Positions 4,745 to 62,576 of a stretch of 64,000 bases of DNA are shown piece after piece. The translations under genes were made by a program, and so were the position numbers. Source of the DNA: Thermotoga neapolitana DSM 4359 (GTDB lineage Bacteria > Thermotogota > Thermotogae > Thermotogales > Thermotogaceae); contig NC_011978.1 in the NCBI RefSeq assembly GCF_000018945.1, forward strand, positions 652,729 to 716,728, in the 5' to 3' direction. The notes under the pieces are model-generated. The model saw only the letters and a list, made by a program, of their open reading frames with translations, was not told the DNA's origin and ran no database searches. The first letter of the stretch is position 1. Every line of letters starts with the position of its first letter.

Positions 4745-5999
4745 CTAGAGGACATAATCTCCAAACCTTTCGACGACTCTGTCCAGAAAGGACTTCATTT
4801 CTTGCCTCAACTCTTTTCCCACTTCCAATTCTTCAAAATTCAACTCCCTCACTGTTGATCCGAGTATTTCGAAGGCCTCCTTGTCCAGTTTTCCCTCCTT
4901 TACCTCGTCTCTGATGATATTCATGGCTTTCTCCACATCCATCTTAGGACGATAGGGTCGCTTTTCCATGAGAGCGCTGAACACGTCTGCCACCTGCAAG
5001 ATTTTATCTTCAGGGCTCATTTCCTCTCCTTTCAACTTGAAGGGATATCCAGAACCGTCGATCCTTTCGTGGTGCCTTACAGCAGGCAGAAACCATTCTT
5101 CCTTGTTCATCGGAAGAAGTATGAGATAAGAAAAGTACACGTGTTTTCTCATCACCCGAAACTCTTCCTCATCTAGCTTTGCTGGTTTTTCCCAGTATCC
5201 TGTAGTTCACACTGATTTTTCCTATGTCATGGTACAGTCCCGCTCTGAAGAGGCTTTCAGCATCCTTTCCAGATGCTTTTCCCATTTCCTTTGCGATGTT
5301 TGCAACCCTCCAGGTGTGCTCACTGGTGAACTCGCTCTTGGCGTCTATTATGAAAGAAACGATCTTTCCAAACTGAGTAACATCTTCCGCTGTGCATTCC
5401 GGACAGTTCGTCACGTATTCTTGAAGGAAATCAATTGTGGATTCGGTGAGGATGTGTTCAAGTTGCCACTGGGTGAACTCTTTCAGAAGGATTTCCCGGC
5501 ATGCTTCGAAGACTTCCGGGAAGAAAAAACTCTTCATTTCTTCAAGAGGAACCAGTATCTCTTTTGGTTCGGTATCATGGTTGATCATCACGTATCTTGA
5601 GACCTGATCCGATATGAACACCACGTTTGCGTACATGTCCTCGTTCCTGGATGGGTCCAGATGAAACGCAGGAAAGTGGTGCTTCAAAACGATAGGAGAC
5701 AGAAACTTGAGTCTTTCCACATAGTCCGTTATGAAACTGCCCAGTATGGAGTGAAGGTGCAGAGGTTTTCCAGGGGTGTCCTTTATGATGATGAAAGCGT
5801 TGTCCATGTCGTCCAGGATGGTCTTTTCACCATCGTATGGGAGGATCAAACCAAGATCGTGAAGCAAGCCTGAGAGGAGGGCAGTTGAGGTGTCCAGATT
5901 CAGTTTTTCGGCGATTTGAAAGGCAAGAAAAGCGACCTGAAAAGTATGTTTTCCCAGGGGTGGTATGGTCTTGAGTAAATTGAAAAGAACCCTTATCAT
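4745..5999 (-). pseudogene. HD-GYP-type phosphodiesterase/sensor gene split by a frameshift
   Basis: Two frames together make one protein of about 417 residues. The first part (5169-5999) carries a degenerate N-terminal HD-like domain with SGLLHDLGLIL, then a second HD domain with EHTWRVAN and YHDIGK. The second part (4745 to about 5190) carries the GYP signature HHERIDGSGYP. The frames join at a coding-strand A5 tract next to GGG (plus-strand 5186-5190): removing one base restores RIL-x-K-P-A-K-L-D-E-E-E-F-R-V-M-R-K-H. An intact HD-GYP domain would hydrolyse cyclic di-GMP; split as read here, the domain could not fold. The gene overlaps THEP1 upstream by ATGA. The lesion may be a true mutation, slippage or a sequencing error. 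Confidence 0.85.
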
Positions 6000-6520
6000 T
6001 CTCCGACACCTCGGTTAGATTTTAACATGTCCAGTATCCTCTTCAGGAGAAGGTCTCTGTTTCTTTCGTTCAACTCAAAGATGATAACATCTTTTTTGTT
6101 TTTGATCTTCTCCACGAACGGGTCACTTGATTTTTTGATCGTTGCAATGAGATCTTTTTCGCTGTTGAAGGCCTTCTCAACAACCCTTTTGAATCTTTCG
6201 GAGAGAAGTTCCATTTTACCTATCTCGTCTATGATCACAACACTCTTTTCTTCAAGTGCTCTTTCCACCGAATCGACTCCCAGTTCTTCCAGATCTTTCA
6301 GGTTCACTCCGTACTTTCCCACCCGGTGCTGAGAGGGAAATCCCACCTTCGCGAGGATTCCCTCTCTTCCATCAAGGGTGACTATTTTGAAACCAACCCT
6401 CTTTCCCTTCTCTCTCATTTCTTCAGTGTAGAAGCCTCCTGCATTCTGCAGGAGGCTTGAGATCTTTTTGATGAGTGTGGTCTTTCCAACACCCGGCCTT
6501 CCGGTGATCAGGATTTTCAT
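5996..6520 (-). CDS. Nucleoside-triphosphatase THEP1 family
   Basis: A 174-residue P-loop NTPase matching the THEP1 family (cancer-related NTPase fold, described biochemically from Aquifex). Walker A is GRPGVGKTT at residues 6-14 and Walker B is VVIIDEIGKMEL near the middle. The size equals the family norm. These enzymes hydrolyse a broad set of nucleoside triphosphates slowly, and their cellular role is unclear. It overlaps the secreted-protein gene upstream and the HD-GYP gene downstream by four nucleotides each (ATGA), so all three are probably translated from one mRNA. Confidence 0.9.
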   Translation of the reverse strand: MKILITGRPGVGKTTLIKKISSLLQNAGGFYTEEMREKGKRVGFKIVTLDGREGILAKVGFPSQHRVGKYGVNLKDLEELGVDSVERALEEKSVVIIDEIGKMELLSERFKRVVEKAFNSEKDLIATIKKSSDPFVEKIKNKKDVIIFELNERNRDLLLKRILDMLKSNRGVGE

Positions 6521-8022
6521 TTCAGTTCCAGACTGTTCAGGATCTTCTCAAACACACTCTCCAGTCTCTTGAAATCCTCTTCGAGGGCGTAAAAACTCAT
6601 GTAGAGATACTGTCCCTCTTTCTCTGGAAACTGAACAATCCAGAAGAGAAAATTCTGCCCCGTTTCGTAATCGGGCATGGAGCTTTCTATGAAGTTGACC
6701 TCGTAATTTGGTGTTTTGACGGTTTCTCCGTTTTCAAGAGGCTCGGTTTCATAGTGGATTTCCGCGAAGGTCAGATCAGCGATGTCGAATATGAAGTAGT
6801 GAATACCTTCGGAGAGTTCGTAGTAGGTGTAACTGGGAACATCCACCCTGAAGGTGTCCGTTTCAACGGTTTTCATCGAAATCTCCCTGGAGAACTTGAA
6901 AGTCCCTTCAGCGGTTCTTTCACCGTCGATGTAGAAAGACACCTTCCAGTTTCCAAGGTCCTTTTCACCCAGGCCATCTGACGGTATCCAGCCCCACACG
7001 CTGTCGTAGTAATCGTATCCTGTCTCAACCACCGGGGCAACGATGTAGTAAACGGTTTCTCTCAGATTTCCACTGGGATCGTACCATTCCCATTTGAATA
7101 TGTGGGAGTTTTCAAAGGGATCCGTATTGCTCCACATGACGATTCTTTTGTCAAAGAGGTTGAACGTGTCGTCGGTGGCGAAGGGAGTGTTTTCGTATAC
7201 GCTTCTGCAGAAAAGAGACTCGGTGATGGATACTGACTCTTTTGGAAGATGTTTTATCTCACCTGAGACGTTCTCAAACACAACGGAAGTACCATCTGAT
7301 ATGGAGAATGGGTCTTCCACATCGGAGAACAAAAGATTTAGCCTTCCATCTTCGACTCTACCACTGAAGGCACCATCCCAGAATTTTGAAGGTCCCAGTG
7401 TTCCTGGCGAATCCACCCTCTTCCACCAGCCGAAGATGTTGTTTTCGATCATGACCCCTTCTATCATTCTTTCTCCGAGTGACCCTTCGATGTGATTTCC
7501 ACTCTGAAAAATCTCAAGGATATCGTTCGATGATTTCCAGTTACTGAGACTGACGTGTTCGCTCACATTGACGGAAGAAAGAATCCTTTCCAGGCTCTGT
7601 AGATCTTCTTCTGGAGGATTTCCAGCCACGAAACTCCAGATGGCAAGATCCTTCATTCCCATTGGAAACACCCTGACGTCGAAGACAAGATCTGTTCCTT
7701 CAAACCTGTAGTAACGACCTTTGAAACCGTTCCAGGTGATCTCTTTCTGATCGACAAGGGATGCATCCTGAGACAGTCCCGAAACCAGCGACTCTTCGAC
7801 ACCAGCATCGTAGATGAAAAACACACCAACACCCTGCGTGAGAGTCTGTCCGTCGCTCATTCCCTTGAAGACGCCCGTCGAGTTCAAACCCAGCGAAGGG
7901 GTCTTCTGCCAGTCTGATGGTTGCTGCCACGTGATTGGCCCGAAACTTTCCGTGACCCATTCTTCCTGGGACAACCCAAAAGCTGCTAGAAGAACCATAC
8001 CGATCAAAAGAAATCTTCGCAC
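6517..8022 (-). CDS. Secreted protein of unknown function
   Basis: A 501-residue protein I do not recognise beyond being the orthologue of a T. maritima hypothetical next to THEP1. The N-terminus MRRFLLIGMVLLAAFGLSQ is a clear signal peptide without a lipobox cysteine, so it is likely periplasmic or outer-sheath associated. The mature part is rich in aromatic and acidic residues, looks all-beta (many alternating hydrophobic strands) and has few cysteines. The start is a GTG with AAGGAGG seven nucleotides upstream (8030-8036). It heads the tightly overlapping run that continues through THEP1 and the pterin genes. Confidence 0.75.
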   Translation of the reverse strand: MRRFLLIGMVLLAAFGLSQEEWVTESFGPITWQQPSDWQKTPSLGLNSTGVFKGMSDGQTLTQGVGVFFIYDAGVEESLVSGLSQDASLVDQKEITWNGFKGRYYRFEGTDLVFDVRVFPMGMKDLAIWSFVAGNPPEEDLQSLERILSSVNVSEHVSLSNWKSSNDILEIFQSGNHIEGSLGERMIEGVMIENNIFGWWKRVDSPGTLGPSKFWDGAFSGRVEDGRLNLLFSDVEDPFSISDGTSVVFENVSGEIKHLPKESVSITESLFCRSVYENTPFATDDTFNLFDKRIVMWSNTDPFENSHIFKWEWYDPSGNLRETVYYIVAPVVETGYDYYDSVWGWIPSDGLGEKDLGNWKVSFYIDGERTAEGTFKFSREISMKTVETDTFRVDVPSYTYYELSEGIHYFIFDIADLTFAEIHYETEPLENGETVKTPNYEVNFIESSMPDYETGQNFLFWIVQFPEKEGQYLYMSFYALEEDFKRLESVFEKILNSLELK

Positions 8023-45423: not shown

Positions 45424-45846
45424 ATGCCAGTTCTCCAAAAAAGAAGAATCAGAAGCGAACTCAAGCAGTTTGTGGGAAAAACTGTCGAAGTTGTTGGTAA
45501 CGTAAAAAGATTCGGTTCTACAAGACACCCCTCTTGCAAGTATCCGATAGTTTTATTGACCAGCGTTACCGTCAGATATAAAAATAAATCCGTGAAAATC
45601 GATCATCTGTGGATGGTGATAAAAAGATTGCCACACACTCTTGATATTGCGACCGGAGACATCCTGGGTTTTAAAGCAGATATTGTCAGGTACAAAGTTT
45701 TGCCAGATTTCAAAAGCAAAAACGCCATATTACGCCCCAGATATAACTACGGAGTTACCAATCCGAGAAATTTTAGAATCATCAATCACTCGATGAATCT
45801 CGAAAAAAGTATGACTCTATACGATGCACTTTTGAAAGTATTGTGA
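45424..45846 (+). CDS. Protein of unknown function (possible OB-like fold) before the cas6 gene
   Basis: A 140-residue basic protein that I do not recognise. The pattern VGKTVEVVGNVKRFG ... PIVLLTSVTVRYKN ... KIDHLWMVIKRLP ... ATGDILGFKADIVRYK alternates beta strands with Gly turns and is compatible with an OB-like nucleic-acid-binding barrel. The C-terminal part, RPRYNYGVTNPRNFRIINHSM, is Arg/Asn rich. The ATG at 45424 follows GGGGTGAG. A position at the edge of a CRISPR locus invites a defence or counter-defence idea, but nothing in the sequence proves it. Confidence 0.65.
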   Translation: MPVLQKRRIRSELKQFVGKTVEVVGNVKRFGSTRHPSCKYPIVLLTSVTVRYKNKSVKIDHLWMVIKRLPHTLDIATGDILGFKADIVRYKVLPDFKSKNAILRPRYNYGVTNPRNFRIINHSMNLEKSMTLYDALLKVL

Positions 45847-45849
45847 TTT

Positions 45850-45867
45850 AGAAAGTGTGCCTAAAAA
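45850..45867 (+). repeat. Third, partial copy of the small-peptide leader repeat
   Basis: AGAAAGTGTGCCTAAAAA differs from the earlier copies by one base and is also followed by a purine ribosome-like AAGGAGGG (about 45890), but no small gene follows. It lies in the leader of cas6. Confidence 0.6.
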
Positions 45868-46006
45868 TCTGAAGACGCAAGACATCATCAAGGAGGGTCG
45901 GGTAGAAAAAGTACGGAGGGAGGGGCCTTCCCTTTCTTACGTGCAACTTATTACCGTGTTCTTGGTGGACAAAAATGATAAAATTATCACAAAAAGGGGG
46001 TGTGGT

Positions 46007-46759
46007 ATGAGAATAAAAATCAATTTTCAAACTACCAAAGCCAGAATTCCTCTGAACTACAATTACTTTCTTTCATCCTTTATCTACAAAAGACTGGCCG
46101 CTCAGAACGAAAACTTTGCCAGATTTCTCCACGAAAGTGGGTACGGAAAGAGATTCAAGTTTTTCACGTTCTCTCAGCTCTTTTTTGAGAACTCAAAAGT
46201 AGATGGAGACAAGATAGTTATATTTCCGGGAAGGGGGTGGTGGCACATATCTTCTCCTGTCGTTGACTTTGTAAGGTACATGTTTTCTTCCCTATCTGAA
46301 GATCCTGTGATAAGGGTTGGGAAGACAGAGTTTTTTGTCCAGTCGATCACCGTCGAGGAATCTCTTCCAGCCCTTTCGGAGTATAACTTCGTTATGATCT
46401 CTCCTCTTGTTGTCAGTGTTCCCGAAGAGAAAAATGGAAAACTGGTTCACAGGTACCTTCACCCGTGTGAAGAAGAGTTTTACGAGGCCTTCAAGAAAAA
46501 CCTGTACAAGAAGTACCGCATCTTCTACGGAAAAGACCCAGAAGGCGATGTGGAAATCATACCAGATTGGAACTACATAAAATCCAGAGAACGCATAACA
46601 AAGAGAATCAAGTTGAAGGATGTCTTCGTCAGAGCAGTTGTTTTTCCATTCAGAATGAGGGGTGATAGGAAACTGGTAGAGATCGGTTATGAAACAGGCT
46701 TTGGTGAAAAGAACAGCATGGGATTTGGAATGGTGGCTTTGAAAGAGAATAAGCCCTGA
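46007..46759 (+). CDS. cas6: Cas6 CRISPR RNA endonuclease (type III-linked copy)
   Basis: A 250-residue RAMP-fold RNase. The likely catalytic His is in ENFARFLHESGYG, followed by RFKFFTFSQL, and the C-terminal glycine-rich loop is GFGEKNSMGFGMV. All are classical Cas6 landmarks. It cuts precursor CRISPR RNA within the repeats. I chose the ATG at 46007, after AAAAGGGGGTG; the frame is open upstream across the leader repeat. It is the first gene of the remnant type III-A cluster (T. maritima TM1814 counterpart). A second, quite different Cas6 is encoded at 52601, probably for the other repeat type. Confidence 0.9.
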   Translation: MRIKINFQTTKARIPLNYNYFLSSFIYKRLAAQNENFARFLHESGYGKRFKFFTFSQLFFENSKVDGDKIVIFPGRGWWHISSPVVDFVRYMFSSLSEDPVIRVGKTEFFVQSITVEESLPALSEYNFVMISPLVVSVPEEKNGKLVHRYLHPCEEEFYEAFKKNLYKKYRIFYGKDPEGDVEIIPDWNYIKSRERITKRIKLKDVFVRAVVFPFRMRGDRKLVEIGYETGFGEKNSMGFGMVALKENKP

Positions 46760-46771
46760 GGAGGTGATGGG

Positions 46772-48382
46772 GTGCATGAGTTTGTCAAACTTGTGACTTT
46801 CCTCGGTGTGGGAAATTATAGAGAAAGCCTGGTTAAGATTTCTCCAGATTTCTGTGTTCGACAAAAAGTTTTTCCTTTAGCGATAGTAGATTATTTACAT
46901 CATCTGGGAAAATCAGTGGAGGTTCTATTTTTTCTGACGGAGGAATCAAGACAGAGTGAAACGTGGCTTGAATGTAGAAATTACCTGGAGAACAAAAATG
47001 TGTCTTACAAGTTTTTCAGCATACCAGAAAGGGTTTCCTCAGAGGTTGTGATGAATTCTCTTGTAAGGACACTCGTGGAAAATCTTAAGGAAGATGAGAA
47101 CATTATACTGGACATTACGCATTCTTTCAGAAGTTTTCCCCTGATGGCAGGTGTGGTGGCACTGTATCTTAAGGAAGCCAAACGTATCGATGTTAGAGTA
47201 ATCTACGGTAAATTTGACCCGGAAACAAACACAACCGAATGTGAAGACCTAACTCCTTTGACCAGGGCTACAGAGTGGATCTACGCAGTTCGCTTGTTCA
47301 GAGAGTATGGATATGCGAAAGAGCTGGCTCATCTGATAAGAAAAAGAAACGAAGAGATCCACAGAAAAAATAGTTCGAAAAAGCCGAGAATATTGAATTC
47401 TTTATCCAGTAGTTTGCAGAATATTTCTTTCTCTCTCAGAATAGGATCAATAAAAGCTATTAGAAAGAACCTATCAAATTTCTTTGAATTTTTTGATGGA
47501 AAAAGAAATCAGATAAGATCAGAAGTGAAAGAATTTGTTCCAGAAATTGCTGCCCTTTTGGATGTTCTGGAAAAAAGTTACAGGGTTTTTCACATCGAAA
47601 GAGGAGGTTTGAAACTGAATGAAGAGGAACTGGAATCTGAAAGAAAATTGTTGAATTTTTATCTTCAAACTGGTGATCTGGGAATGGCACTTCGCCTGGC
47701 AAGAGAATATTTGATAAACGCTTATCTGATGATGAGTGGAGAAGAAACGAATTTTCTCGAAAGAGATGTCAGAGAATCTGTTAACCTTTCAAAACTGGGT
47801 TACGATATCATTCTTCAGGCAAGAAATCATGTTGCTCGTTTTGGTTTCAACAAAGTTGACCTTCCTTCTTTGAACAAAATAGAGAAAGCCATCAAATCTC
47901 TCGTTTCATCACATCCGGAGAGAATCCTGATTTCTTCAGAAAAGTCCTATCAGAGTAGAAAAGCTGCCCTCCTCACGCCTCTTGGTACAACAAAAGGGGC
48001 TCTGTATACTGTCCTAAAGCATTTTTCACCTGATTTGCTTCTGATTGTGACATCAAAACAGGGGAAGGAAATCCTTCCTGAAATTCTGGAAAAAGTGAAA
48101 TATAAGAATGATTACAAAGTGATACTCCTTGAGGACCCGTTTACAGGGGTGAATGAGATAAATCGAGTTATATCCGAAGCCAGAGAATACCTTGCAGACT
48201 CCGACGAGATAATAGTCAACCTAACTGGAGGAACCACACTTCTCACTTACCTAGTGGAGTGTATAAAAAATCATCTCAGATATGGAAGAAAGATAAAAAC
48301 CGTTCTCGCTGTAGACAGAAGAAGCTATGAAGAGCAGATAAAAAATCCCTTTGTGGTAGGAGAAATTCTGGAACTTGAGTGA
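46772..48382 (+). CDS. Csx/Csm6-type ancillary protein with two CARF-like domains and a degenerate HEPN motif
   Basis: A 536-residue protein of the TM1812 (Csx2) line. The N-terminal CARF-like domain has VTFLGVGNY and LDITHSFRSFPLM (residues 112-125). A helical middle follows. At the place where HEPN ribonucleases have RNxxAH, this protein reads RNHVAR (351-356), with Arg in place of the catalytic His. Another RNEEIH sits at 192-197 in the first helical part. The C-terminal 140 residues form a second CARF-like domain with LLTPLGTTKGAL and VNLTGGTTLL (483-491). Intact relatives are RNases switched on by cyclic oligoadenylate made by Cas10. It lies between cas6 and a truncated cas10, 12 nt after cas6. 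The start is a GTG at 46772 with GAGGAGGTGA upstream. Confidence 0.82.
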   Translation: MHEFVKLVTFLGVGNYRESLVKISPDFCVRQKVFPLAIVDYLHHLGKSVEVLFFLTEESRQSETWLECRNYLENKNVSYKFFSIPERVSSEVVMNSLVRTLVENLKEDENIILDITHSFRSFPLMAGVVALYLKEAKRIDVRVIYGKFDPETNTTECEDLTPLTRATEWIYAVRLFREYGYAKELAHLIRKRNEEIHRKNSSKKPRILNSLSSSLQNISFSLRIGSIKAIRKNLSNFFEFFDGKRNQIRSEVKEFVPEIAALLDVLEKSYRVFHIERGGLKLNEEELESERKLLNFYLQTGDLGMALRLAREYLINAYLMMSGEETNFLERDVRESVNLSKLGYDIILQARNHVARFGFNKVDLPSLNKIEKAIKSLVSSHPERILISSEKSYQSRKAALLTPLGTTKGALYTVLKHFSPDLLLIVTSKQGKEILPEILEKVKYKNDYKVILLEDPFTGVNEINRVISEAREYLADSDEIIVNLTGGTTLLTYLVECIKNHLRYGRKIKTVLAVDRRSYEEQIKNPFVVGEILELE

Positions 48383-48402
48383 AGAAAGGGGGTGCTTTAT
48401 TC

Positions 48403-49803
48403 TTGAATGACAGGAAAGAGCTCGTCGTAGGTGCTCTCATTCACGATGTAGGAAAAGTTGTGAGAAGAGCAGGTGATAGCAGAGCACATCAACTGGCAGG
48501 GTACGATTTCACAAATAAGGTAAAAAAGTTTGCAAAGTTTCAAAAGTACATACACTACCATCATGAAAAGGATCTTAAAGAAAAAAATTTAGAAGATGAA
48601 AAGGTCTGGTACGTGTGCTTTGCAGACAACCTGTCCAGCAGCGAGAGAATGACTGATGGGAACGTCTTCGACGAGTATCGAAGGTTAGAGAACCTCCTCT
48701 CGAAGATTCCAGAAAAGGAACAAAAAAAGCCCACCTATTTTCCTATCAGATCCGCAGATAAAATAACAGAAGCCGTCACGGAAATGGAAGAAGAAAAGGA
48801 GAGTTACGCTTCTCTTTACGAATCGTTCGTTGAGGATGCAGAGAAGATTAGTCTCTCACCGGACGATGTGAACTTTCTTGTGTACAAGTATTTTTCCTTC
48901 ATCCCACAGGAAACAAGAGTGGAAGGAGACATGGACATTTCTCTTTACGACCATCTGAAAGTCACCGCCATGCTTTCTCTGGCCCTGTACGATTACGCAA
49001 AAGAGAATCACCTTGACTTCAAAACTTACGATGAGATGAAAAGATACTTCGAAGATCCTTCCGTAAAACCCTTCCTTCTTGTTGGAGGAGACGTCTCTGG
49101 AATCCAGAACTTCATCTCCAGTGTCTCTTCGAAGGGAGCACTCAGATCCTACAGAGGAAGAAGTTTCTTCATAGAGATCCTCCAGGAAGTTGTGGTTGAT
49201 GAGATTCTCAGCAGAACAGGCTTTTACAGAACAAATGTTCACTACATCGGAGGAGGACACTTCCACCTTGTTTTGTCCAACACGGAAAAGGTGAAAGAAA
49301 CCATTGAAAAGATCAGAAAAGAACTGAACGCCTGGTTCAGGAAAAGAGGGCTTTCACTCCATCTTGTGACGGAATACACGGAGTTTTCAACAAAAGATGT
49401 CAAGGACATGGGAAGCATTTTCGAGAGCATAGCAAAGAAGGTGAACCTGAGAAAACTCAGAATGTACACAGAAGAAGACCTTGAGGAACTCTTCCCGGAT
49501 GATCTCTCTTCGATCGCGGAAAAGGGAGGTTTCACGTGCAAAGTGTGCGGAAACAGAGTCGAAAAACTCTTTGCCCTCGGTGACAGCGAAGAAGAAATAG
49601 CCTGTGATTTCTGCAGGAAGATGTACGAACTTGGAAGAGACCTTCTTAAAAAGGATGAAGAAGGAAATTATACTTACATCTATCTCGTTGAAAAGGACAA
49701 TGGAAGGTTTGAAATCTTCAACAAACGCTTTGATTTCTCAAGAAAACCAGGTGAAGACTGTGTGGTGTGGGAGAGAACAGAAGACTTGGTATGGGGGATG
49801 TAG
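48403..49803 (+). pseudogene. csm1: Truncated cas10/csm1 (type III-A large subunit) lacking the GGDD cyclase domain
   Basis: A 466-residue open frame. The N-terminal HD nuclease domain (GALIHDVGKVVRRAGD, HYHHEKD) and the first palm domain (LLVGGDVSGIQNFISSVSSKGALRSYRGR) are intact, as is the zinc part CKVCGNR...CDFCRKM. It stops at WERTEDLVWGM, where a normal Csm1 of about 730-760 residues continues into the second palm with GGDD and the C-terminal helical domain. csm2 to csm5, which follow in T. maritima, are absent: an unrelated gene on the other strand begins its 3' end 39 nt later. Without GGDD no cyclic oligoadenylate can be made. The start is a TTG at 48403, after AAAGGGGGTG. Confidence 0.88.
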
Positions 49804-49842
49804 AAATCTACAGAATCGTTGAGTGAATCCCTTCCTGCTTTT

Positions 49843-50655
49843 TCAGGTTTTTCCCGCCGGTGAACTTTCTCTCTGTTTCATGAAAATTCTCTCCGTCACG
49901 GCAGGTGCTCCAAGATACATTATGTTGTCAAGAATTGACCTGTTTCTCTTTAAATTCAGAAGGTCGTATGCCTTCCAGATCTCGTTGATGCACATTTCAA
50001 GAACATCCTTTACAGCGTTCTTTGCTCTTTCAAAATCTCTGTACTCTTCTACGAGGGGGTTGTACACCCCCTTCTTTTTATCCTTTTCGAAATCATCGAG
50101 TGCGTCGACGATGTAGAGCCACTCTCCAAGGTGCACACCAAGATGGTAAAGGATTCTTCTCTGATCTTCTTCTTCAACGGTCGATTCCAGGATCTTTCCG
50201 AGTATTCTTCCCTGCTCTTTTGCGAGTTCTTCAAAGTTTGCTTTTTTCCTTTCCAGTGTGTAGAATCTGTCAAAGAGTTTCGATATTTTCGGGTCTTTTT
50301 TCAAAAACGATTTGACCAGAAGATAAATCGGATTTTTCGTGTCCAGATAGTTGTCCCTCATTTTCTCGGAAAGAAGGGCTACGAAGATTTCTGCAACACG
50401 GTTTATGGATTCAGACTGATAGTATTCCACTTTTTTCAGAGTGAAAAAGCAGAAGTTTCGCTTTCTCTCCACATGTTCACCCTTCAGACTAGAAAGAAGA
50501 AGAGAAAGTGAGGCAGCCTCGTAGGTGAGAAGAAGCCGGGGGACTATGGAGTACCTCTTCAGAGCACGGCAGACTCCACAATAATACCTTCTGAACTCTT
50601 CGTACTCTCTGACCTTGAGTTCACACTTCAGCGGTTTGATGTATCCAAACATCAT
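49843..50655 (-). CDS. DUF5685 family protein
   Basis: A 270-residue mostly helical protein. The N-terminal [32 protein letters not shown], with its Cys and YYCGxC motif, marks the DUF5685 family; several Cys may bind metal. The function is unknown. Further on it has long charged helices (ALDDFEKDKKKGVYNPLVEEY). It overlaps the membrane-protein gene upstream by ATGA and runs with a J-domain gene in one minus-strand operon, so an assembly or chaperone setting is suggested. Confidence 0.75.
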   Translation of the reverse strand: MMFGYIKPLKCELKVREYEEFRRYYCGVCRALKRYSIVPRLLLTYEAASLSLLLSSLKGEHVERKRNFCFFTLKKVEYYQSESINRVAEIFVALLSEKMRDNYLDTKNPIYLLVKSFLKKDPKISKLFDRFYTLERKKANFEELAKEQGRILGKILESTVEEEDQRRILYHLGVHLGEWLYIVDALDDFEKDKKKGVYNPLVEEYRDFERAKNAVKDVLEMCINEIWKAYDLLNLKRNRSILDNIMYLGAPAVTERIFMKQRESSPAGKT

Positions 50656-51469: not shown

Positions 51470-52087
51470 AGTTATATGTTATCAGATCTTCAGAGTTTGT
51501 GATATATCCCACATTTGTATGTTAGTCAAAAGATTATTTAACTATACTTTGTATATTTTATTCACTAAACCAGGGTAAGTTCCATTTATTCACAAAGCGG
51601 GTGGTGATTGTAACTGACTCCTGATGTGCGATACGGAGTATGCAACTGTCGGTAACGAAAAAATTCATGCGGGTTTGAGAGAGGTGATGTATGCATGGAA
51701 AATGGAATAATGAGCGAGAATGTGAAACAGGGTATGAGAATATGTCTTCATCTGTGTTTATGTATCTATCATGAATAAAGAAACCACACACTTAGTCTCT
51801 AACCTTTTAAGGAGTGCCTTTTTGAACAAATTTGTGAAAATGAGAACTAGTTGATTTTCCCATAAAACAACTCAAAATGCCCTGACCTAGGTTAGGATAA
51901 TTTATCTTTTGATTTTGTCTTTCTTTAGGCTTTCTATTGACTATGTAATTATTCCATTTTTCCAAACAGTACTTGACTTGATCTTTCTGTGTGTTAGAAT
52001 CACCTGTGATGAAACACCTTCTGTATGTCCTCATATATTCTTGCTTTTTGAAATGCTTTGTGGTATAATTTCTCTGAAATCCAACGG
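51470..52087. other. Non-coding A/T-rich region holding the CRISPR array 1 leader
   Basis: About 620 bp between the J-domain gene and the first repeat. No gene with a family match or ribosome site is seen. The sequence is A/T rich with scattered short inverted words, and its last 50 bp hold a clear promoter toward the array. Promoter elements for the minus-strand J-domain operon must also lie at its left end, but I cannot place them with confidence. Confidence 0.6.
52041..52069 (+). promoter_or_regulatory. Promoter of CRISPR array 1
   Basis: TTGCTT at 52041-52046 and a perfect TATAAT at 52064-52069 are 17 bp apart. Transcription would start near 52076, about 12 nt before the first repeat. 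Confidence 0.75.
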
Positions 52088-52517
52088 GTTTCAATACTTC
52101 CTTAGAGGTATGGAAACCGTAGTTCCTCACGGTGCCGGAGCAAACCTCGAACTCGTTTCAATACTTCCTTAGAGGTATGGAAACTGTTTCGTGTAAGTGT
52201 GAATCTCAGAACGTTGCCTTGTTTCAATACTTCCTTAGAGGTATGGAAACTCTTGAGGGGGTGAGGGTTGATCTTCTTTCCACCTCGTTTCAATACTTCC
52301 TTAGAGGTATGGAAACAAAGGACACTGTCGTATATGGTAGGACATGACGGCACCGAGTTTCAATACTTCCTTAGAGGTATGGAAACTTTTTCTTTGCGTG
52401 AAGTAAGCGTTTGGGAATTCTGTTTCAATACTTCCTTAGAGGTATGGAAATTGAGCCATGAGCCAGGCTTCTCTTTTACAATTAGCAGTTTCAATACATC
52501 CTCAGAGGTATGATTTA
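52088..52517 (+). CRISPR. CRISPR array 1: 7 repeats of 30 bp, 6 spacers
   Basis: Repeats start at 52088, 52155, 52221, 52287, 52357, 52422 and 52488. The first five are identical, beginning GTTTCAATAC and ending GTATGGAAAC; the repeat ends are inverted (GTTTC/GAAAC). The sixth has T for the last C. The seventh is degenerate (ATCCTC in the middle, ATTTA at the end), marking the distal end. Spacers are 35-40 nt, all different. The leader and promoter are on the left. The repeat differs from that of array 2 and is probably the substrate of the other Cas6 (46007), but this is inference. Confidence 0.95.
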
Positions 52518-60616: not shown

Positions 60617-60693
60617 ACAAAACTGGAGGTTTGACGCAAAATCTGTTCAAAAGAATGGTTGTTTCATGCTTTTTTACTAAGAAAATAACTGCG
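60617..60693 (+). promoter_or_regulatory. Leader of CRISPR array 2
   Basis: A 77-nt A/T-rich stretch between cas2 and the first repeat. TTGACG at 60631-60636 is a good -35-like word, but no matching TATAAT-like box is seen at 16-18 bp, so the array may be transcribed from the cas operon as well as from this leader. Confidence 0.5.
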
Positions 60694-62559
60694 GTTTTTA
60701 TCTTCCTAAGAGGAATATGAACGCACAAATGTGTGTGTGTCGGCGTTTTTGTGGCGCCAGGTTTTTATCTTCCTAAGAGGAATATGAACGAAACTGCCCA
60801 CGCCGTACCAGAGCGTTGGCGCCAGGTTTTTATCTTCCTAAGAGGAATATGAACGGGGATTACTCCCCGCTAAACTCTACCGCTATCCAGGTTTTTATCT
60901 TCCTAAGAGGAATATGAACAAGCCATCAGGACAGAAATAGACACGATAGCGCTCAGTTTTTATCTTCCTAAGAGGAATATGAACATGACATTTATAAACT
61001 ATTTCATTCCAGGGGATTACTCGTTTTTATCTTCCTAAGAGGAATATGAACAGCTCTTTCGATGCGACAGTCGGCGAGTATGGAGTGTGTTTTTATCTTC
61101 CTAAGAGGAATATGAACCTCTACCCTCAATTAAGATCGACTGTCACATATCAAGTTTTTATCTTCCTAAGAGGAATATGAACTTGTAACCAGCCACGGCG
61201 ATCTATCTGCCCTGTGAAAGTTTTTATCTTCCTAAGAGGAATATGAACCAATCTAGAAGGAGGGGATTGAGATGGTCAAGTATGAGTTTTTATCTTCCTA
61301 AGAGGAATATGAACATTCACAACTATATCTATGTGTTCGAGTGTAATCTCGTTTTTATCTTCCTAAGAGGAATATGAACAAGATAAGAATCTTCACCTTA
61401 AATCTCCTCCCACACCAGTTTTTATCTTCCTAAGAGGAATATGAACGGCGACAGAAGCCGCCAGTGTCGTTTGCAAACTGCGGTTTTTATCTTCCTAAGA
61501 GGAATATGAACGTAGGGAAGCTAGAGGTGGTAGGATGAGTGAATGGAGTTTTTATCTTCCTAAGAGGAATATGAACCAATCTTCTCTAACTCATTGGCGT
61601 TCTGAAAGATTTCAGTTTTTATCTTCCTAAGAGGAATATGAACATCTAGATAGAGGACATTTATAGGGTCTCGTGTTTTGTTTTTATCTTCCTAAGAGGA
61701 ATATGAACCGTTCTGCAGGGGGTCTTTTTCAATCTCCCTGTCCAGGTTTTTATCTTCCTAAGAGGAATATGAACCTATATGGACAGACTCCTATATCCGC
61801 TTCCTGTATGAAAGTTTTTATCTTCCTAAGAGGAATATGAACTTCCTCCCTTACCTCATCGTGATGCGCACACCTTTCTGGTTTTTATCTTCCTAAGAGG
61901 AATATGAACTTTTCTTGAAGTCTTCCTCTACTCTTTTTTTATATCGTTTTTATCTTCCTAAGAGGAATATGAACTGATAAAAAAGGAGTTCGTTGAAAAG
62001 CTGATGAAAAGTTTTTATCTTCCTAAGAGGAATATGAACCTTTACCTCGTGATGAAGGCGGGGGTAGGTATATCCGGTTTTTATCTTCCTAAGAGGAATA
62101 TGAACTCTATACAATTTTATCTCTTTGAGGGTGTTGGCGCAGTTTTTATCTTCCTAAGAGGAATATGAACTGTCTTCTCTCCTATCCGCCTGCCGTTTTT
62201 GGGAATGTTTTTATCTTCCTAAGAGGAATATGAACTGCTATCACTTCCTTACCTCTGTATCTCGTACTCGATCGTTTTTATCTTCCTAAGAGGAATATGA
62301 ACCTTGAGAAGGCTGCTGCACAGGCTGACGCATGGATCGGTTTTTATCTTCCTAAGAGGAATATGAACATGGTCGGGTCATTCCCCTCCTTGTCTCTGAA
62401 CAACGTTTTTATCTTCCTAAGAGGAATATGAACCAGAACTCCTTCCACCTGTTCACCGCTGCTTTGAACGTTTTTATCTTCCTAAGAGGAATATGAACTG
62501 CGGTGTGATAGGTCACACTCCCACCTCACACAACGTTTTTATCTTCCTAAGAGGAATAT
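60694..62559 (+). CRISPR. CRISPR array 2: 29 repeats of 29 bp, 28 spacers
   Basis: Repeats begin GTTTTTATCT and end GGAATATGAAC. Starts are 60694, 60761, 60826, 60891, 60956, 61023, 61089, 61154, 61220, 61286, 61351, 61418, 61483, 61548, 61615, 61680, 61746, 61814, 61881, 61946, 62011, 62077, 62142, 62207, 62274, 62340, 62405, 62470 and 62535. The first 28 are identical; the last loses its final GAAC. Spacers are 36-39 nt and mutually distinct, except that spacers 3 and 5 share 11 nt end to end. The orientation places the cas2-side leader at the left. The repeat sequence is not that of array 1. Several spacers look like coding starts with ribosome sites, as phage or plasmid genes would. Confidence 0.96.
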
Positions 62560-62576
62560 AGTAGAATGGTGGAAAA

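Follow-up and report, generated by a model that had tools for sequence, protein, structure and literature searches.

The gene at positions 46772-48382 of the window (the whole 64,000-nucleotide stretch of Thermotoga neapolitana DNA analysed here) encodes a CARF-HEPN-CARF protein that is most probably an orphaned and catalytically disabled effector left over from a lost type III-A system. Its ancestor most likely would have been an RNase turned on by cyclic oligoadenylate (cOA) from an adjacent type III-A (Csm) complex. Two events in the T. neapolitana lineage account for the present state: a deletion of ~4.5 kb, which took away the cas10 cyclase together with csm2-csm5 and almost the whole of csx22, and a substitution of one base, which converted the HEPN catalytic His to Arg. 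The protein would now receive no signal and cut no RNA, and its gene would be a drifting remnant.

The features on which this reading depends are as follows.

45857-46759, plus strand: cas6 (PF01881, E=1.1e-34); the true start is probably internal, near 46000
46772-48382, plus strand: CARF-HEPN-CARF protein (TM1812-type Csx1), 536 aa (PADLOC PDLC01838), with alignable long copies in nine Thermotogota genomes
46772-47251, plus strand: N-terminal CARF, approximately residues 1-160, with the DxTHG-type motif LDITHSFRSF (TIGR02549; alpha/beta fold in the model)
47252-47947, plus strand: central helical and HEPN region, approximately residues 161-392 (all-helical in the model; CARF_HEPN model matches)
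47345-47362, plus strand: RNEEIH, residues 192-197, resembling an RNase motif by chance
47822-47839, plus strand: HEPN motif RNHVAR, residues 351-356 (sequence and alignment); Arg356 codon CGT at 47837-47839, His in relatives
47948-48379, plus strand: C-terminal CARF, residues 393-536, motifs TPLGT and VNLTGGTT (this piece on its own matches in PADLOC, E=2.9e-79)
48379-49803, plus strand: truncated cas10/csm1 (TIGR02578 positions 2-446 of 753)
49755-49823, plus strand: csx22 remnant, last 23 codons, on the far side of the deletion (tblastn)

A CARF-HEPN-CARF protein of the TM1812 branch

The open reading frame starts with GTG and is free of internal stops. Because PDLC01838 (CARF2--CARF_HEPN_CARF) matches residues 4-536 over positions 1-522 of 522 with E=1.2e-262, the architecture of two CARF domains plus HEPN is far beyond chance. 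TIGR02549 (CRISPR_DxTHG) exceeds its cut-off, confirming an N-terminal CARF carrying a DxTHG-type motif, and PF23400 (CARF_Card1) reaches its cut-off in the whole protein; the TM1812 equivalog model TIGR02221 scores 66.6 bits, below its cut-off of 76.25 bits. Both CARF motifs are intact. When the profiles of the N- and C-terminal CARF domains are compared directly the match is weak (probability 11%), and we therefore claim no internal duplication.

Structure prediction, which the first-pass annotation had proposed as a check, yields alpha/beta domains at residues ~1-160 and 393-536 on either side of a helical middle (AlphaFold2; mean pLDDT 83.5, pTM 0.56). The best PDB match of the model is Marinitoga Csx1-Crn2 (8y6z, E=1.2e-18), with Csx1 and Csm6 next. 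Since the pTM is only 0.56 and the active-site loop 355-361 falls below a pLDDT of 50, the model backs the domains yet is uninformative on the active site. The same annotation had named the protein a double-CARF member of the Csx1/TM1812 type, an identity upheld by the full-length profile match, the modeled domains and the PDB matches to CARF-HEPN proteins. It had also placed the reading frame, RNHVAR (351-356) and VNLTGGTTLL (482-491) correctly, while LDITHSFRSF, which is indeed present, lies at 113-122 and not at 112-121, one residue off.

The CARF-HEPN-CARF family is already catalogued in PADLOC, and the T. neapolitana protein is an orphaned member of that Csx1 (TM1812) branch. Anantharaman et al. 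2013 list TM1812-type Csx1 among fusions of HEPN with a Rossmann fold and further domains (PMC3710099). With this family the protein shares full-length homology, domain order, the syntenic place between cas6 and csm1 and both CARF motifs, but it has Arg for the HEPN His and neither a Csm complex nor a Cas10 cyclase. Marinitoga Csx1-Crn2 (PMC7293037) likewise combines CARF, HEPN and a C-terminal ligand-binding domain, and the N-terminal 390 residues align; however, its third domain is Crn2 rather than CARF, its motif is RNSVAH and it has been shown to be active. Csm6-2 (CARF-HEPN-CARF-HEPN; PMC11229360) also carries two CARF domains per chain, but it is activated by cA6 and has a second HEPN, whereas the T. 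neapolitana chain ends with its second CARF.

The HEPN catalytic His is replaced by Arg

In relatives of this protein, cOA bound at CARF switches on the HEPN RNase, for which the motif His is required. The codons of RNHVAR are AGA AAT CAT GTT GCT CGT, so that Arg356 (CGT) is one base away from the His codon CAT. A search of 103 Thermotogota genomes gave matches in 24, T. neapolitana included, several of them to one domain only. Long copies are present in nine other genomes (G091, G092, G093, G101, G068, G069, G070, G071 and G002), eight of them full-length; the copy in G091 is frameshifted, and those of G069 and G071 appear identical in the alignment. An alignment-based scan of genome contigs recovered two relatives, apparently those of G101 and G002, and a single-sequence scan of genome contigs found none. 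Viral contigs yielded no relative.

The HEPN motif reads RN[HY][VFI]AH in the long copies of all nine other genomes. His occupies this position also in five shorter CARF-HEPN proteins (L011, L013, L019, L022 and L024), and Marinitoga Csx1-Crn2 aligns here with RNSVAH. The R-x4-H active site is absent from the T. neapolitana copy, and His is found in every relative examined. The first-pass annotation had pointed to this Arg, had suggested an alignment at residue 356, and would have given up its reading if all close homologues of proven RNase activity also had Arg there. This is not the case: His is present in all of the relatives, Marinitoga Csx1-Crn2 among them.

In the HEPN mutant H402A of M. 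piezophila Csx1-Crn2, RNA is not cleaved and the C-terminal ring nuclease is normal (PMC7293037), and in Pfu Csx1 the H436A mutation eliminates RNase activity (PMC7192623). By analogy with these published motif mutants, which change His to Ala, H356R would abolish RNase activity. As judged from its sequence, the T. neapolitana protein is a CARF-HEPN-CARF member by descent, yet it is not predicted to be an active enzyme.

The first-pass annotation had also raised the possibility that RNEEIH (192-197) is a second, displaced RNase motif. This candidate fails, because its His is unique to the T. neapolitana copy and is seen in no relative. The segment is unconserved: relatives have RNEEIY (congeners), RNSSIR, QNEKYY and others. 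Given RNEEIY in congeners and other residues elsewhere, RNEEIH is a chance resemblance.

Two of the relatives themselves look broken. The G091 orthologue (L004/L026, G091:C1 about 1788874-1790518) has one extra base near codon 97 (CCGGAGAGGAG vs CCGG-GAGGAG), which may be a second independent inactivation or a sequence error; csm genes and Cas10 are present in that genome despite the split. The copy in G078 (L012/L025/L027, G078:C16 about 5660-7132) is divided into three separate pieces that do not share a frame, one of them containing a stop, and looks like a pseudogene.

A deletion junction in cas10

Congeners carry a complete type III-A operon at the syntenic site, with the CARF-HEPN-CARF gene between cas6 and csm1. 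In the congener G093 (locus L038) the order is cas6, CARF-HEPN-CARF, csm1 (725 aa), csm2, csm3, csm4, csm5, csx22 and a 156-aa gene, after which the counterpart of the window gene 49843-50655 (DUF5685) follows on the opposite strand. The window is collinear with congeners from cas6, whose open reading frame in the congener starts at the equivalent of an internal MRIKINF, to about 49653-49754, and collinearity resumes at about 49909.

At position 49755 the Cas10 frame (~residue 454) meets csx22 codon 173 in a different frame. Residues 1-454 of the 725 in G093 Cas10 align to 48379-49755, and tblastn with the congener's Csx22 recovers residues 173-195 at 78% identity (E=3.4e-7); the final codons of the cas10 frame run through this csx22 remnant out of frame. 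In L038 coordinates ~4.5 kb separates the two junction points. Comparison with the congeners indicates that a deletion of this size took the 3′ third of cas10 with the cyclase, csm2-csm5 and nearly all of csx22. The stump of cas10 keeps the HD domain, the first palm region and the zinc ribbon, while the cyclase palm is gone; the loss of the cyclase from the neighbouring Cas10, noted in the first-pass annotation, is thus confirmed as a 3′ truncation by both the TIGR02578 match and the G093 alignment. The congener's 156-aa gene is also missing from the T. neapolitana locus, and its loss may be a separate event. A tblastn search for csm2-csm5 fragments elsewhere in the 64-kb window returned noise only.

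In the genome paper on the T. neapolitana-type strain RQ7, a cas6-csm1 cassette is placed upstream of an array at a distance of 2285 bp (PMC5637354). The window shows the same spacing of 2285 bp between position 49803, where the cas10 frame ends, and position 52088, the start of the first repeat. If the RQ7 locus is the same, the deletion would be older than the split of strains with 98.49% ANI.

Other features were observed around the locus. A 140-aa reading frame just upstream of cas6 (45424-45846) has no Pfam, PADLOC or NCBIfam match, and different genes lie upstream of cas6 in G093. CRISPR arrays at 52080-52454 (6 copies) and 60684-62572 (29 copies) have differing repeats and flank a type I-B operon of cas6, cas8b, cas7, cas5 and cas3, with cas4 farther on. 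Two cas6 genes are left in the window.

No type III complex or known signal source in the genome

The T. neapolitana genome is a single finished contig of 1,884,562 bases. RAMPs are absent from it as judged by PF03787, which has several matches in five of six congeners. The Cas10 palm model PF22335 gives only one match in the genome, below cut-off and far from the locus, probably to a GGDEF protein, and the SMODS cyclase has no match in the genome. The protein is linked to no type III complex whose Cas10 cyclase is active: the local Cas10 is truncated, and the genome holds neither a RAMP nor a convincing palm. Since RAMPs, a convincing Cas10 cyclase and SMODS are all missing, the protein is left with neither a resident complex nor any known source of signal. 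Its orphan status beside a cyclase-less Cas10, proposed in the first-pass annotation, is therefore substantiated: the Csm complex is deleted and the genome has no RAMP.

Selection on the orphaned gene

The branch to the T. neapolitana copy measures 0.28, compared with about 0.26 (0.22 + 0.05) to the congeners. Because these lengths are about equal, most of the history of this copy appears to have passed under constraint like that of its congeners. Relative to congeners dN is 0.24 and dS about 2.3-2.6; synonymous sites are saturated, so the dN mostly reflects time before the loss. At 111 columns invariant in five outgroups, private changes number six in the T. neapolitana copy, of which G108D, E292K, H356R and R497C are radical, and two in G093. 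This difference is small and hints at recent relaxation. A relative-rate test of the Cas10 stump, with one distant outgroup only, gave 20 vs 15, no clear excess.

With an intact frame and a branch length near that of congeners, long drift has left no strong sign, and both CARF motifs are retained; these points weigh against the remnant reading. Nevertheless, loss of function is the simplest reading, because the whole Csm complex is deleted, and the gene is probably a drifting remnant that receives no signal at present.

Alternative explanations

With a dead HEPN domain, the protein could still be maintained on account of its CARF domains, working as a cOA-cleaving ring nuclease or as a cOA sponge, for example against signals of type III systems that come in on mobile elements. 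The intact CARF motifs fit such a role, as does the normal C-terminal ring nuclease activity of Marinitoga Csx1-Crn2 H402A (PMC7293037). Other Thermotogota moreover encode stand-alone proteins of 140-151 aa related to the C-terminal CARF, one of them beside cas1 and cas2. But searches of the genome turned up no cOA producer, the gene belongs to a deletion remnant whose cas10 is broken, and the C-terminal domain is CARF and not Crn2, leaving a ring nuclease role only putative. By profile this CARF is assigned to no ring nuclease family: it matches CARF_HEPN_CARF models best and then general CARF families, and the 25 models listed for it include neither a Crn nor a Csx20 model. We consider retention for these domains improbable, and the first-pass suggestions of a ring nuclease, a cOA sponge or a freed sensor find no positive support; no cOA producer was detected in the genome.

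The stand-alone CARF proteins (L016:1495-1917 and L018:1267-1722) are candidate ring nucleases in their own right. They are homologous to the C-terminal CARF, with E values of 5e-42 and 6.6e-41 to CARF_HEPN_CARF models, but are separate genes without N-terminal CARF or HEPN. The L016 gene is flanked by apparent cas1 and cas2 genes and, in the other direction, by a protein-kinase-like gene. Long proteins at L015, L020, L021 and L023 (frames of about 1060-1090 aa) also end in a domain resembling the C-terminal CARF, and the upstream part of the L015 protein matches CARF7--CARF_CYTH_HD.

Alternatively, Arg356 could stem from a sequencing mistake or be confined to this one culture, the species having a normal HEPN orphaned by the deletion only. 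A single base in one genome makes the difference, and the motif is otherwise perfect. Isolated substitution errors are, however, uncommon in finished single-contig assemblies such as this one, and we likewise give this explanation little credence. Still less expected is a sequence of events in which the Csm complex and the RNase were lost and the protein was then kept as a ligand-binding-only CARF protein, a cOA sponge or ring nuclease encoded by the host that damps incoming type III signals; with such a ligand-binding role it would represent a naturally HEPN-dead CARF protein. Least credible is that the protein still cuts RNA, fully or weakly, some other residue or Arg356 itself standing in for the His. 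The intact frame and otherwise unchanged HEPN motif would permit this, but His is present in all relatives examined, two Csx1 proteins lose activity when the His is mutated, and the RNEEIH alternative is unconserved.

Implications

Read as the orphaned effector of a lost type III-A system, this locus would be a clear case of a type III-A signalling module dying, in which the complex has been deleted and the effector persists with an altered active site. Csx1 and Cas10 will continue to be annotated here, so that a functional type III system that is not there may enter surveys.
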